IMG/VR virus record: IMGVR_UViG_3300032220_001321
Coordinates: 1 to 28,861 of that record
Strand: one strand, 5' to 3'
From: a virus
DNA length: 28,861 nucleotides
Program-made: the position numbers and the translations under genes
Shown: one piece after another, positions 448 through 5,322 of the stretch
Numbering within the stretch: position 1 is the stretch's first letter
Layout: every line of letters begins with the position of its first letter
The notes under the pieces: model-generated
What the model saw: only the letters and a program-made list of their open reading frames with translations
Database searches by the model: none
Told to the model about the DNA's origin: nothing

Positions 448-578
448 AAGTCTACGCCCTACTCGACGGCAACGACTACGCGCTGCAAGGCATCTTCGCC
501 ACTCGACTCGGTGCCGAAGAGGTGCAAGGCAGGCTCAACTTCTGGACGATCATCTGGGAGTGGGAGGTGGAGCCGTGA
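444..578 (+). CDS. Small hypothetical protein (44 aa)
   Basis: I do not recognise this protein. It begins with GTG overlapping the lysozyme stop (GTGA) and ends in a TGA that overlaps the GTG of the next gene, so it is flanked by coupled starts on both sides. The product begins MKVYALLDGNDYALQGIFAT and ends in a tryptophan-rich acidic tail (FWTIIWEWEVEP). It has no cysteine pairs, signal peptide or clear membrane segment. The spacing and coupling argue that it is translated; nothing in the sequence reveals a function. Confidence 0.55.
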   Translation: MKVYALLDGNDYALQGIFATRLGAEEVQGRLNFWTIIWEWEVEP

Positions 579-1453
579 ATAAAACATTGTCTCTATTCGC
601 GGAGCATGAAGCGATTCAGACCAGCCATCCGCTGAAGATGTACTCTGAGCGACTGACAGCAGATGTGAATCAAAAGGGAGTGCTAGATGTAGACACCGTC
701 AAGGGTTGCACGGCTGGCATGAATGCAATCCCCGGGCATGGCTGCTACAGCTCTTGCTATGCAGCAAAGATTGCAAAGTTTCGAGGCATCGACTTCACAG
801 TTGCTGTTGCACGCAGGGTTCAGAGCGTGGCCGACGCACGACAGATCGAGGAGGCCGTGCGCTCTGCTCCAGAAGGCTTCTTCAGAGTAGGCACGATGGG
901 CGACCCGTCGCACGAGTGGGAGCATACTGTTGCAACCATTGAATGGTTGGCGAAGTTTGCAGTACCTGTGATCGTCACCAAGCACTGGATGACAGCCAGC
1001 ACAGATCAACTGTCACGGCTTGTCGCATGTGGCGCAGTTCTCAACACCTCAATCTCTGCACTCGATACACCTGCACAGCTCGCACATAGAAGGTCACAGA
1101 TTGAACGGTATAGAGACCTTGGTGGTGTAAGCGTGTCTAGGGTTGTTTCCTGCGAGTTCAATACGGCACACGAACTTGGCAAGGCAATGGCTGAGATTCA
1201 GGAAAAGCTGTTTCAGCTACAGCCGATCATCGACAACCCACTAAGAGTGCCTAAGTCACATTGGCTTGTGCAGCAGGGGATCATCAAGGTTGAACCCGTG
1301 CTCGACCTAAGCAAAACGCCTGTATCTATGTCACTCCTGAACAAAGACTCATACGTCGGTCATTGTTCAGCTTGCCCGGACAAGTGCGGCCTGTCATCAC
1401 GCAAAGAAGGCCATCCTTCACTAAAAGACCCTCAACTAAAACTGTCGATCTAA
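575..1453 (+). CDS. Radical-SAM-like / Fe-S phage protein of a DNA-modification cassette
   Basis: This 292-aa protein has two cysteine clusters. The N-terminal one is GCTAGM followed by GCYSSCYAAK (C45, C57, C61). The C-terminal one is HCSACPDKC (C264, C267, C271). Between them is an alternating strand-helix pattern with FRVGTMGDPSHEW (103-115) and PVIVTKHW (131-138). This resembles the phage families related to radical SAM proteins that carry a GCYxxCYA motif; the classical CX3CX2C is not present as such. I chose GTG 575 rather than an in-frame GTG at 560 because a GGAGGTGG ribosome site sits just before it. It lies 21 bases before the GNAT-methyltransferase gene and shares its AT-richer wobble positions (AGA and CTA codons), so the two probably travelled together. 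An Fe-S, SAM-dependent step in base hypermodification is inference. Confidence 0.6.
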   Translation: MNKTLSLFAEHEAIQTSHPLKMYSERLTADVNQKGVLDVDTVKGCTAGMNAIPGHGCYSSCYAAKIAKFRGIDFTVAVARRVQSVADARQIEEAVRSAPEGFFRVGTMGDPSHEWEHTVATIEWLAKFAVPVIVTKHWMTASTDQLSRLVACGAVLNTSISALDTPAQLAHRRSQIERYRDLGGVSVSRVVSCEFNTAHELGKAMAEIQEKLFQLQPIIDNPLRVPKSHWLVQQGIIKVEPVLDLSKTPVSMSLLNKDSYVGHCSACPDKCGLSSRKEGHPSLKDPQLKLSI

Positions 1454-1474
1454 AACAACAACCAGGACCTCACT

Positions 1475-2908
1475 ATGAGCTCGAACACGACTGAATTAAA
1501 ACCAGCAACACCTACCCACGACCTCTTCGGATCCAGTGACCGCTCAGTTGAGCTAGTTGTCCTTGATCAGGTTATTGGGTCAGGATATGAGAAGTCTGTA
1601 GCAAAACTCGCCATCGAGGACGGCATTGCACAGCGTGCAGCACGCAAGAACATGCAGGTGCATTCGGCCGTTGTGCTAAAGCTAGACGGCGGCTTTGCTG
1701 GGTTTATGACTTTCGAGAGGAATCATATCGTTGGGGAGTTCTGTCTACTCCAGTCTGTCATCGAACCAAAGCACTACACACCTGACCTGTACAGGCAGAT
1801 GGTGCAGAAGGTCATCGAACAGAATGTTGACGGCTACCCTGCCGTAATCACAACTGACCCTAAAAGCAAGTTTGAGACTCCAAAGCTGTTCGAGTCACTA
1901 GGGTTCCAGACCTACCTAAAGATGTCTGGGTTCCACTATATGGTCAGAGGCGACCTGTCCTCTGTGCGCATGAAGCTGCTGGCGCACATCACAATGACCA
2001 ATGTCTGGGTCACCACTAAAGGTGACTGGCTCAACCTCAAGAGAGAATGGAACAAGCAGATCGAAGAAGCTGGCACGGCTGCTGGCGTATTAAATCCTGC
2101 CTACGCAACACGAGGAGGATGTTGGCAAGGCGAGAACGGCTACTCTAATGTCGTCAACACACGCAGAAGCCTAGATGCTAATGGTGAAGTAGTCACCACT
2201 ACCAAGGCTCACAACGGAAACGCCTCAGTACTTGACCCGCTTGCATGTGAAGTTATCGCTAGATTCTTCATGCCTAAGACTGGCGGCAAGGTCTACAACC
2301 CGTTCGGAGGTGGTGTTCAGTTTGGCTTTGTTTCTGGCGCATGCGGGTATGAGTACCTGGCCAGCGAGATCAGGCAGAACCAAGTAGATGCCAATAACGC
2401 TATCTGTAGCAAGTTTGGCGGTCGTGTCCGTTGGGTGCAAGCTGATAGCTCCACATACGACCCTGAGCACGAGGTTGACTTGGTGTTCACATGCCCGCCG
2501 TATTACAAGGTTGAGAAGTACTTAGACTATGACGGCAAGCCGCCGGCTGGAGAGATCAACTCTTTCTCTACCTACGAGAGCTTTAGAGATGCCTTGTTCT
2601 CAGGCTATAAGAAGGCGATCAGTAGACTGAAAGATGACCGCTTCTTTGTGATCATGACGGGTGATAGCCGAGACAAGACAGGCGCGTACTATTGCAGCGA
2701 GGCTGAGACTGAGATCTTCCTCAAGGATCAAGGTCTGAGCGTGTACAACAGAATCGTATACCTTGAATGTGAGTTCACGCGGCTGGCGCATGCCAAGCGC
2801 ACGCTAAACACGCGCAAGTTCCCCAAGCGTGAGCAGAAGATCATTGTGGCCTATAAGGGCAAGATCTCCAACATCGAGGAGAACTTTGCAAGATTGGGTC
2901 GGCTATGA
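1475..2908 (+). CDS. GNAT (Mom-like) / DNA amino-methyltransferase fusion protein
   Basis: This 477-aa protein has two domains. Residues about 25-160 look like a GNAT acyltransferase fold: HSAVVLKLDGGFAGFMTFE (63-81), a strand with the SVIEPKHYTPDLYRQMVQKV turn and helix (94-113), and the closing KLFESLGF (137-144). Residues about 175-477 are a SAM-dependent methyltransferase-like domain with motif I as NPFGGGV (275-281) and the catalytic loop as TCPPYY (339-344), the form typical of N4-cytosine or N6-adenine enzymes. Phage Mu Mom is a GNAT-fold enzyme that modifies adenine in DNA, which makes a two-step or alternative modification of one base an attractive guess. Base and codon use are AT-richer than in surrounding genes. 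The start ATG follows CAGGACCTCACT, giving a modest ribosome site. Alternative reading: a DNA methylase with an accessory acyltransferase domain of unrelated purpose. Confidence 0.7.
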   Translation: MSSNTTELKPATPTHDLFGSSDRSVELVVLDQVIGSGYEKSVAKLAIEDGIAQRAARKNMQVHSAVVLKLDGGFAGFMTFERNHIVGEFCLLQSVIEPKHYTPDLYRQMVQKVIEQNVDGYPAVITTDPKSKFETPKLFESLGFQTYLKMSGFHYMVRGDLSSVRMKLLAHITMTNVWVTTKGDWLNLKREWNKQIEEAGTAAGVLNPAYATRGGCWQGENGYSNVVNTRRSLDANGEVVTTTKAHNGNASVLDPLACEVIARFFMPKTGGKVYNPFGGGVQFGFVSGACGYEYLASEIRQNQVDANNAICSKFGGRVRWVQADSSTYDPEHEVDLVFTCPPYYKVEKYLDYDGKPPAGEINSFSTYESFRDALFSGYKKAISRLKDDRFFVIMTGDSRDKTGAYYCSEAETEIFLKDQGLSVYNRIVYLECEFTRLAHAKRTLNTRKFPKREQKIIVAYKGKISNIEENFARLGRL

Positions 2909-3400: not shown

Positions 3401-4732
3401 ATGAAGTACCTGTCGATCTGTTCTGGCATTGAGGCCGCCACGGTCGCCTGGCACCACATGGGTTGGTCTCCTGTTGGCTTTGCCGAGATCGAGAAGTTCC
3501 CTGCTGCGGTGCTGAAGCACCACTACCCGACCGTCCCCAACTTTGAAGACTTGACCAAACATGAGCAATGGCCCCTCGCTTCTGGATCAGTTGACCTTCT
3601 GGTCGGAGGGACTCCCTGCCAGGCCTTCAGCGTTGCAGGACTCCGGCGAGGCATGGACGATGCGCGTGGTCAACTCACCCTTGAGTTTGTCCGACTGGCT
3701 GCACGACTACGTCCGCGCTGGATCGTCTGGGAAAACGTGCCTGGCGTCTTGTCCAGCGCAGGAGGACGGGACTTTGGTTCCTTCCTCGGGGCGTTGGGGG
3801 AACTCGGGTATGGGTGGGCCTACAGGGTCTTGGACGCTCAGTACTTCGGAGTGGCCCAACGCCGCCGTCGTGTGTTCGTTGTCGGATACCTTGGAGACTG
3901 GCGTCGTGCCGCAGCGGTTCTTTTTGAGCGCGAAAGCGTGCGCCGGGATCCTCCGCCGCGCAGAGAATCGCGGGAAAGCACTTTCGCCAATATTGAACCA
4001 AGCCTTGTCTCAAGTGGCAGAGGAGTTGCACGAACGGGTGACTCCAGAGGACAAGACCCAGTAGTAGCAGTGGCTGGGTGCCTTGGAAGCCGCGCTAGCA
4101 GCGGTAATGGCTTTAGCACCGACTTTGAGTGCGCAGGCGGTCTGCAAGTAGTCGGCGCGCTTGACTGCCGCCTCGGGGCGCAGCGAGCGCAGAATGCGCA
4201 AAGTGGACATATGATCCCAGTTTGGCCCGCTGAAGTTGCGCCTACGCTGAACGCAGCGTTTGGCACTAAGCAAGGCTTAGAGGATCAGCACGCGCTCGGT
4301 GGTGCAGGGTGCTTTGTGCCAGCCTTACCCATCGCCGTAGAAACAGATTGCTACAACGGTTCCATCACTGGTGATGTTGCTTGCACGATGGGAACACCCG
4401 GCAGCAGCGTAAACGCAAGCGGGCCGACGGTAATGCAGCCGGTGGTGACGTTTGGCGGTGACATCGCCCGCACCTTACAAGCCCGGCACGACTCTAGCCC
4501 CTGCGCTGACCGCGGCATGGACGTTGTGGCTACCGCCATGCAGGTGCGCCGTCTCACCCCAGTCGAGTGTGAGCGTCTGCAAGGTTTCCCAGACGGCTAT
4601 ACCGACATCAAGCCTCGAGGCAAGGACACGCCCGACGGGCCGCGGTACAAGGCTCTCGGCAACAGCATGGCCGTGCCGGTGATGCGGTGGATCGGCGAAC
4701 GTATTGAGGCCGTTGATAAACTCCCAAGGTGA
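3401..4732 (+). CDS. dcm: C5-cytosine DNA methyltransferase
   Basis: This 443-aa enzyme transfers a methyl group from SAM to C5 of cytosine in DNA. Motif I is SICSGIEAATVAW (5-17), the catalytic loop is GGTPCQAFSVAG (69-80, nucleophile C73), ENV is at 111-113, QRRRRVFVVGYLGD is at 153-166, and the C-terminal block is RRLTPVECERLQGFP with YKALGNSM. The part between QRRRRVF and the C-terminal block is the expected target-recognition region; it is long and Gly/Ala-rich with loosely repeated units such as VAPTLNAAFG and IARTLQARH, as in many phage homologues. It likely protects phage DNA from host restriction. Positions 3561-4064 also encode a second protein in the +1 frame. The gene is bracketed by a 13-bp direct repeat and followed by a hairpin. 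The recognition site cannot be read off. Confidence 0.93.
   Translation: MKYLSICSGIEAATVAWHHMGWSPVGFAEIEKFPAAVLKHHYPTVPNFEDLTKHEQWPLASGSVDLLVGGTPCQAFSVAGLRRGMDDARGQLTLEFVRLAARLRPRWIVWENVPGVLSSAGGRDFGSFLGALGELGYGWAYRVLDAQYFGVAQRRRRVFVVGYLGDWRRAAAVLFERESVRRDPPPRRESRESTFANIEPSLVSSGRGVARTGDSRGQDPVVAVAGCLGSRASSGNGFSTDFECAGGLQVVGALDCRLGAQRAQNAQSGHMIPVWPAEVAPTLNAAFGTKQGLEDQHALGGAGCFVPALPIAVETDCYNGSITGDVACTMGTPGSSVNASGPTVMQPVVTFGGDIARTLQARHDSSPCADRGMDVVATAMQVRRLTPVECERLQGFPDGYTDIKPRGKDTPDGPRYKALGNSMAVPVMRWIGERIEAVDKLPR
3561..4064 (+). CDS. Overlapping-frame protein nested within the methyltransferase gene (167 aa)
   Basis: This ORF lies wholly inside the cytosine methyltransferase gene, in the +1 frame. 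It reads as a natural protein: it starts MSNGPSLLDQLTFW, has WSTSEWP-type spacing, and contains AAVVCSLSDTLETG followed by VPQRFFLSAKACAGILRRAE (about 103-134), then RGKALSPIL. From memory, this LSD-LETG-PQR-FLS-KAC-GILRRAE signature belongs to a widespread uncharacterised phage protein family that can occur next to or overlapping Dcm genes. Both frames are constrained through the catalytic ENV and QRRRRVF stretch of the methyltransferase. The function is unknown; a companion or regulator of the methyltransferase is only a guess. It has an ATG start with no strong ribosome site, so expression may depend on coupling with the host frame. Confidence 0.72.
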   Translation: MSNGPSLLDQLTFWSEGLPARPSALQDSGEAWTMRVVNSPLSLSDWLHDYVRAGSSGKTCLASCPAQEDGTLVPSSGRWGNSGMGGPTGSWTLSTSEWPNAAVVCSLSDTLETGVVPQRFFLSAKACAGILRRAENRGKALSPILNQALSQVAEELHERVTPEDKTQ

Positions 4733-4959
4733 AGGTCGTGTGACCTTCGCTGTGCTGGCCGGCTGGTATCGGTGGTGCGACTGGTAGACTAGGCTTCCCG
4801 GTCGACGGTGTGTGCCGTCGATATCCCGGTGACGGTGCATCCTTCTAGGACGGGGGCGTGCATCGTCACCGGACCTGAAACGCCAGCGGCAGCTCCAAGT
4901 TCCTTGGTCGGGACTCCGGGCGTGGCCGGCCGCTGGTGGTCATTGCAACGGCCACGCCC
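4731..4959 (+). ncRNA. Non-coding stem-loop array (candidate structured RNA or 5' regulatory region)
   Basis: This roughly 230-nt interval between the methyltransferase and the Nmad1-like gene holds four consecutive hairpins with no convincing CDS. They are 4731-4748 (7-bp stem GAAGGTC, tetraloop GTGT), 4801-4822 (6-8 bp, CGACGG/CCGTCG), 4826-4872 (14 bp with one G.U pair, CCGGTGACGGTGCA) and 4918-4959 (10 bp, GGGCGTGGCC/GGCCACGCCC). The first could terminate the methyltransferase transcript, though no U-tract follows. The last ends 12 bases before ATG 4972, so it could control that start. Alternatives are a phage small RNA or chance palindromes in GC-rich DNA. Confidence 0.35.
4780..4792 (+). 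repeat. 13-bp direct repeat, right copy
   Basis: This is a second exact copy of ACTGGTAGACTAG, 47 bp after the methyltransferase stop; the first copy is at 3388-3400. Together they enclose the methyltransferase and its nested gene. Confidence 0.75.
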
Positions 4960-4971
4960 ACCTTCCATCCC

Positions 4972-5322
4972 ATGGCCGTCACGCGCACAGATCTCCTCGA
5001 CCTGCACGAACACGTCACCGACCTGGCGTTCCGCACGATGCAGGCGAAGAACAATGACTACGCCTCGACGAAGGATGCCCTGTACAACCTTCGCCAGTGC
5101 GAGATGCTCGGCCTGTGCTCCGTCGAGGCGGGCATACTGATCCGCATCACGGACAAGATTTCGCGCCTGACGCGCTACACTCAGGCCGGCGTCGTCGCGG
5201 TGCAGAGCGAGTCGATCGAGGACACGGTCGTGGACCTCGTGAACTACTCGGTCCTGCTCCTGGCGGCGATCAACGACAAGCGGGCGGCGCACGATGAGAC
5301 CGCCGGCTCGCGGCAGGCGTGA
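4972..5322 (+). CDS. Nmad1/DUF1599-like nucleotide-modification-associated protein
   Basis: This 116-aa protein matches the DUF1599 pattern: a first helix ending in FRTMQAKNNDYAS, a middle helix AGILIRITDKISRL, and a last helix with ESIEDTVVDLVNYSVLLLAA. The KN-DY, DK-SRL and ESI-DT-DL-NY signatures are the diagnostic ones. DUF1599 (PF07659) has been called nucleotide modification associated domain 1 because it recurs near base-modification genes in phages, which fits the modification enzymes upstream. It is mostly helical, with no signal or membrane segment. I prefer ATG 4972 over an in-frame GTG at 4936, because the latter falls in the loop of a 10-bp hairpin and adds a low-complexity leader; neither has a good ribosome site. 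The stop lies within the acceptor stem of the tRNA-like sequence. Confidence 0.75.
   Translation: MAVTRTDLLDLHEHVTDLAFRTMQAKNNDYASTKDALYNLRQCEMLGLCSVEAGILIRITDKISRLTRYTQAGVVAVQSESIEDTVVDLVNYSVLLLAAINDKRAAHDETAGSRQA

Follow-up and report, generated by a model that had tools for sequence, protein, structure and literature searches.

A split radical SAM, GNAT and amino-methyltransferase module with clamp-type motifs: a candidate DNA base-hypermodification system of uncultivated phages

In this paper we analyse two adjacent genes in a viral record of 28,861 bases (IMG/VR record IMGVR_UViG_3300032220_001321, taken over its whole length and called the window below). One encodes a radical S-adenosylmethionine (SAM) protein and the other a fusion of a GNAT domain with an amino-methyltransferase domain. 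We think it fairly probable that the two genes constitute a single phage enzyme system for the hypermodification of DNA bases, and we hold any specific product of that system with much lower confidence. The reading is supported by the predicted folds, the domain order, the near-obligate association of the two genes and their repeated fusion and splitting. It is also supported by the exchange of the radical SAM partner for an enzyme of another family and by conserved clamp-type motifs. An earlier note on this stretch had proposed such a cassette. We find support for the cassette, for both folds and for a role in DNA modification, but not for a Mom-like GNAT domain or for including a nearby C5 methyltransferase in the system. 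Each of the folds, and phage hypermodification as such, were already known. In the open-licence literature we found neither the radical SAM-GNAT-methyltransferase set nor its fusion reported, and no such enzyme described with clamp motifs; the survey that Iyer and others published in 2013 may contain an earlier mention.

Two genes that form one module

The two open reading frames (ORFs) are intact, lie on the plus strand, as do all features within them, and are separated by 21 bases. The radical SAM ORF starts with a GTG at 575, with GGAGG 5' of it, and ends at 1453 (292 amino acids); the GNAT-methyltransferase ORF runs from an ATG at 1475 to 2908 (477 amino acids). We found at least 151 relatives of the GNAT-methyltransferase in IMG/VR and further ones in five bacterial assemblies (Spirochaetes, Smithella, Desulfobacula, Desulfobacterales and Massilibacteroides). 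In a search of 50,697 phage records neither the radical SAM protein nor the GNAT half had a match.

For the analysis of gene arrangement we used 84 dereplicated, testable loci with a GNAT-methyltransferase. A radical SAM partner is present in 83 of them: it is fused in 48, encoded upstream in 17 and downstream in 15, and replaced by another enzyme in 3, leaving a single locus in which it is absent. The association is near-obligate and far above chance, so that co-occurrence, which the earlier note had named as a check on its proposal, speaks for the cassette. It is equally visible in the loci that were found by GNAT-methyltransferase queries alone (42/43). The radical SAM domain of the fused forms always lies N-terminal to the GNAT domain, and the pair in the window is best explained as a two-gene version of a protein with three domains, in the order radical SAM, GNAT and CPPY-methyltransferase. 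On the tree at least 17 changes of arrangement are found, and those branches that are well supported require the fused state to have changed at least 8 times. That two unrelated genes merely happen to be neighbours, a view for which nothing speaks beyond the window itself, can be given practically no weight: it is refuted by the 83/84 association, the 48 fusions and the rearrangements on the tree.

The three loci with a replaced partner lie on separate branches of the tree. In the first (L047) no radical SAM gene of the module's own family is left, and the gene end is overlapped by one for a PF04055 enzyme (45.8 bits) from a different family. The replacement in the second (L061) is an intact relative of this enzyme, both being of canonical type. 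The third (L088, 7524-7835, in the Massilibacteroides assembly) retains a remnant of a replacement radical SAM protein, of which only the C-terminal part with a QLTLF motif is left. Because the partner in L047 and L061 is an intact radical SAM enzyme of another family, it seems to be radical SAM chemistry that is kept, and not one particular gene. A comparison of the L047-type replacement with the radical SAM family of the module gives a weak colinear match (23.7 against 18.9 for the best of 20 column shuffles), which is suggestive only.

Predicted folds and conserved residues

Searches by sequence against Pfam, PHROGs, NCBIfam and the PDB gave no family match for the radical SAM protein. Its AlphaFold2 model, based on an alignment of 56 relatives, has a predicted local distance difference test score (pLDDT) of 91.9 and a predicted template modelling score (pTM) of 0.88. 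When the model was compared with known structures using VIA-align, all of the 50 best rows were radical SAM enzymes, which match a partial (ba)6 TIM-barrel of about 226 residues. Spore photoproduct lyase comes first (Z 12.4, 226 residues), followed by viperin-like enzymes and pyruvate formate-lyase (PFL)-activating enzyme; Elp3 is not among the best 50 rows. Since rows within about 1 Z were counted as ties, these ranks indicate the superfamily and not a specific function. Foldseek matches to the model are weak, the best being biotin synthase and lipoyl synthase (E 1.2e-3). The radical SAM-like Fe-S protein of the earlier note is therefore borne out in its fold, with the cluster being presumed.

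The presumed [4Fe-4S] ligands are C45-X11-C57-X3-C61, which follow strand b1 (707..757) and belong to a C-X10/11-C-X3-C triad that is invariant in 56/56 homologues. Strand b2 (102-105) is followed by G109-D110-P111 (899..907), conserved in 55-56 of the 56 homologues; judging by the strand order of the model it would sit at the position of the radical SAM GGE motif, as a variant of it. Close to the C-terminus three more cysteines (C264-X2-C267-X3-C271, 1364..1387) are invariant in all 56 sequences and may form a second metal site, although one of them is replaced in a relative without a GNAT partner (L173). As modelled, the product of 575-1453 is a radical SAM fold with an unusual, invariant cysteine triad. 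The phage-borne DUF5131/Gp37-Gp68 family (PF07505) likewise has a non-standard three-cysteine motif, ending in CYA; kinship with this family was rejected on a null hhalign result.

The top rank of spore photoproduct lyase, an enzyme acting on DNA, raises the question whether the module is a clamp-bound DNA repair system, in which the radical SAM protein reverses a base lesion and the GNAT and methyltransferase domains restore or mark the repaired site. Clamp motifs are common among repair proteins, which would suit this idea. However, viperin, PFL-activase and others lie within about 1 Z of the lyase, so that the rank says little, and the lyase itself is a repair enzyme with a canonical CX3CX2C motif and with neither a GNAT nor a methyltransferase domain. 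Repair would furthermore leave unexplained why one polypeptide should contain both a GNAT and an amino-methyltransferase, and we regard it as improbable.

In the 477-residue protein (1475..2908) only an amino-methyltransferase in the C-terminal half is recognisable by sequence with Pfam and PHROGs. The AlphaFold2 model of residues 1-206 (pLDDT 86.8, alignment of 89 relatives) adds a predicted GNAT domain at residues 24-159 (1544..1951). Residues 25-158 show the exact GNAT order b1-a1-a2-b2-b3-b4-a3-b5-a4-b6-b7, and the model thus has the full fold in the region, residues 25-160, on which the earlier note had staked its claim. The closest structure is the acyl-CoA N-acyltransferase 1xeb (Z 16.3, root mean square deviation 2.0 A over 130 residues), after which come ElaA and NAT enzymes, with Z>=8 for 883 of the 999 chains. 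Thirteen positions are invariant in the 89 aligned rows: R54, R57, N59, Q61, H63, S64, E88, C90, Q93, S94, Y106, T126 and E134.

The GNAT domain had been described as Mom-like. The Mom protein of phage Mu is indeed alike in that a GNAT fold is proposed to carry out phage DNA adenine modification. The two differ in sequence: hhalign of the GNAT profile against 12 Mom proteins is null (probability 0.1, E 0.44), and of the Mom motifs HYS, ELNR and SFAD none is found in the GNAT domain of the module. Regarding the Mom invariants HY, E108, D149, Y159 and N163, the HYS and ELNR counterparts are absent from the GNAT alignment, and a loose match of E88 to the b4 glutamate of Mom is possible. The best 50 BFVD matches to the GNAT model include none named as a Mom protein, the nearest solved structures being of the ElaA/NAT type. 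Given the null profile comparison and the absent motifs we reject membership of the Mom family. We know of no radical SAM or methyltransferase partner of Mom.

Motifs of the sliding-clamp type

The beta-clamp binding consensus is QL(S/D)LF (PMC9690074, PMC3716654). A QxxLF-type peptide is found ahead of the GNAT domain in 59/84 proteins, compared with 5.6% in shuffled linkers. Its usual distance to the GNAT signature stretch GSGxE, which follows it, is 16 residues, and its flanking residues are not conserved. Clamp-type motifs are also present in a terminal extension of 20 of the 32 separate radical SAM proteins, where 2.0 are expected by shuffling, and the replacement radical SAM proteins end in QLELW (L047) and in the QLTLF mentioned above (L088). 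The window has one proper clamp-type motif, the hexapeptide QLKLSI with which the radical SAM protein ends (1433..1450). Such motifs would therefore make newly replicated DNA the likely substrate, and as sequence features they point to a DNA substrate, and to both proteins acting in the same place, better than any other evidence we have.

The clamp motifs could also be read differently, namely as marking the clamp as the substrate or as an anchor, with the module acting on protein or RNA, for instance on the clamp or on tRNA. The nearest GNAT structures are protein N-acetyltransferases, and Elp3 works on tRNA (PMC13315578). On the other hand, the methyltransferase half falls within the DNA methylase group of PF01555 and phrog_498, and the neighbours of the module are replication and recombination genes. 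This leaves a substrate other than DNA with little probability, about as little as the repair explanation and if anything slightly less.

Simple methylation or a larger group

The CPPY-family amino-methyltransferase domain spans 2087..2905, with the SAM-binding motif I YNPFGGGV (2294..2317) ahead of motif IV TCPPYY (residues 339-344, 2489..2506). In this respect the earlier note, which described a GNAT joined to an amino-methyltransferase with TCPPYY, agrees with our results. The PF01555 (N6_N4) match of 24.8 bits is under the curated cut-off of 26.7, and 59 of 65 relatives match PF01555 at E<=1; the PHROGs matches are phrog_12517 (E 3.9e-38) and phrog_498 (E 2.9e-36). Within the family alignment CPPYY and NPFGGG are invariant, and the first residue of motif IV is C rather than D/N/S. 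The succession of motif I and motif IV, the CPPY and a C-terminal RK..Q..KG are common to the aligned phage ParB-methyltransferases (phrog_498; for example gp36 of Enterococcus phage phiFL3A and gp77 of Listeria phage B054). In contrast to these proteins, whose methyltransferase domain is alike, the module has a predicted GNAT fold in place of the N-terminal ParB/Srx domain of phrog_498 and a near-obligate radical SAM partner, neither of which is present in any of the 80 ParB relatives.

Several observations weigh against a hypermodification system. The module is known here from genes alone and has no cultured phage as a carrier. The cysteine triad departs from the canonical CX3CX2C, a kind of deviation that is known in other radical SAM-fold families. 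The GNAT linker of the window holds a degenerate QxxLF only, THDLF (1514..1528), and the glutamine is missing throughout its clade. In one record of 40.8 kb, which may be a fragment (L011/L105), an intact GNAT-methyltransferase with a QEEMF linker is present and no radical SAM gene of the module's own family was found. The R/QxxGxG/A loop between b4 and a3, which holds the acyl-CoA pyrophosphate, is present in 0/89 GNAT rows, and the stretch is variable; the same segment in Mu Mom (PRNSES) likewise has no R/QxxGxG signature. Simple acylation from acetyl-CoA is thus not supported. Taken together with the invariant residues, the alignment suggests a GNAT domain that is conserved without being a standard enzyme of the acetyl-CoA type, and because the loop is absent the donor may be a different one. 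Finally, in the branch closest to the Listeria and Enterococcus proteins the methyltransferase's ParB relatives have no partner in 79 of 80 cases, so simple methylation is possible.

Simple methylation would mean that the module produces N6-methyladenine or N4-methylcytosine, that the GNAT domain is a dead scaffold or takes over DNA recognition from ParB, and that the radical SAM protein has a task of its own, for instance the removal or oxidation of the methyl group. Besides the partner-less ParB relatives and the missing acetyl-CoA loop, it is favoured by the lack of any other target-recognition domain in the GNAT-methyltransferase fusion. It fits poorly with a radical SAM partner in 83/84 loci, fused in 48 and replaced from another family in 3. 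It also leaves many invariant polar GNAT residues, including H63, E88, C90 and E134, to be explained, and these suggest catalysis by the GNAT domain rather than scaffolding. We therefore consider simple methylation unlikely, while ranking it above repair and above a protein or RNA substrate.

Other branches of the CPPY family are informative in this regard. In one of them a pyridoxal phosphate (PLP) enzyme (PF00291) adjoins the gene or is inserted in it in 40/80 loci (L231 1-2275, L237 2396-3987, L240 512-3001 and L327-L406). A third branch (L234 1982-3827, L235 877-2518 and L323-L326), with FAGD instead of FAGG in motif I, is accompanied by a SAM decarboxylase (PF02675) in 4/4, and decarboxylated SAM may serve these FAGD methyltransferases as the donor of an aminopropyl group. 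Such partners hint that the groups which some CPPY members transfer or elaborate may be bigger than methyl. That a SAM decarboxylase or PLP partner is general in the CPPY family was rejected, with 1/80 in the Listeria/Enterococcus branch, and the same search found neither partner in the radical SAM/GNAT loci. Pseudanabaena phage Pam4 has its PLP enzyme inserted into the methyltransferase domain itself, where it separates motif I from motif IV. In Pseudomonas phage ZRG1 and in Croceibacter phage P2559S the gene of the ParB-methyltransferase overlaps that of the SAM decarboxylase, and a search with the P2559S protein gave four viral contigs, P2559S itself among them, all of which have both genes.

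Proposed mechanism and known parallels

Under the hypermodification reading, the clamp-type motifs would bring the enzyme set to the sliding clamp and so to newly replicated DNA. There the methyltransferase domain, judging from its family, would flip out a base, adenine or cytosine, and put a SAM-derived group on its exocyclic amine. This group might then be built up or remodelled by the other two domains, GNAT and radical SAM, in an Elp3-like manner, and the product would hide the phage DNA from host restriction. This leads to a more specific and more tentative hypothesis, to which we give somewhat less than an even chance: that of a clamp-tethered, all-in-one enzyme. Here a radical SAM domain of non-canonical type, together with a GNAT domain put to another use and without the usual role for acetyl-CoA, would build a new group on a base selected or pre-alkylated by the CPPY transferase. 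Such an enzyme would be the DNA counterpart of Elongator and its product a base modification new to DNA.

The nearest parallel for this chemistry is Elp3, the catalytic subunit of Elongator, in which the GNAT-like domain handles an acetyl unit that the radical SAM domain converts into a radical, for addition to a tRNA base (PMC13315578). By analogy, its example shows that these folds are able to work together on a nucleobase. Like the 48 fused loci, Elp3 has radical SAM and GNAT in one polypeptide, whereas the window has separate genes. Unlike the module, which is without the acetyl-CoA loop, it binds and hydrolyses acetyl-CoA; its substrate is tRNA and it has no methyltransferase domain.

Radical SAM, PLP and acetyltransferase enzymes also act on phage DNA in the thymidine hypermodification of phages such as M6 and ViI. 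These pathways start from 5-hydroxymethyl-deoxyuridine and involve kinase and aminoacyl transferase genes, but neither recurs as a constant partner among the neighbours of the module. The steps of known phage hypermodification are usually spread over many separate genes, while the module packs three chemistries into one or two proteins. Since it is widespread in well over 150 contigs of uncultivated phages and absent from the phage records searched, it may be that the modification is frequent in nature and has escaped notice in the laboratory. In the fused forms the whole reaction can be tested from a single gene. The clamp motifs furthermore suggest a general route by which a phage genome could be modified while it is copied, comparable to PCNA-bound Dnmt1, which is thought to modify DNA during copying in animals (PMC9690074).

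Neighbouring genes and related loci

The module is surrounded by replication and recombination genes, named by reading representative sequences, with a YqaJ-type nuclease near 12 modules and DnaB near 11. There is no other constant partner gene among the neighbours of the 84 modules. Large clusters that appeared to be conserved neighbours were discarded, as they are antisense ORFs of the module itself. The earlier note had counted on two further genes of the window as signs of several base changes. The C5 cytosine methyltransferase (PF00145 by Pfam, 3401-4732) is present, but as it lies near only 5/84 modules we rejected it as a part of the system. The Nmad1-like protein is likewise present as a DUF1599 match at 4936-5319, which with 24.8 bits is just under the Pfam cut-off of 25.

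Radical SAM relatives without a GNAT-methyltransferase adjoin ParB genes, and we read their loci as a DNA-modification setting once more. In L158 (4699-7926) the module-type radical SAM gene lies between two ParB-like genes and a phosphoadenosine phosphosulfate (PAPS)-reductase-like PP-loop gene. L173 (4966-8783) and L153 (7974-11227) combine the module-type radical SAM gene with ParB and a second radical SAM protein of about 460-480 amino acids with CX3CX2C, and L173 in addition encodes a TET-associated glycosyltransferase (PF20691).

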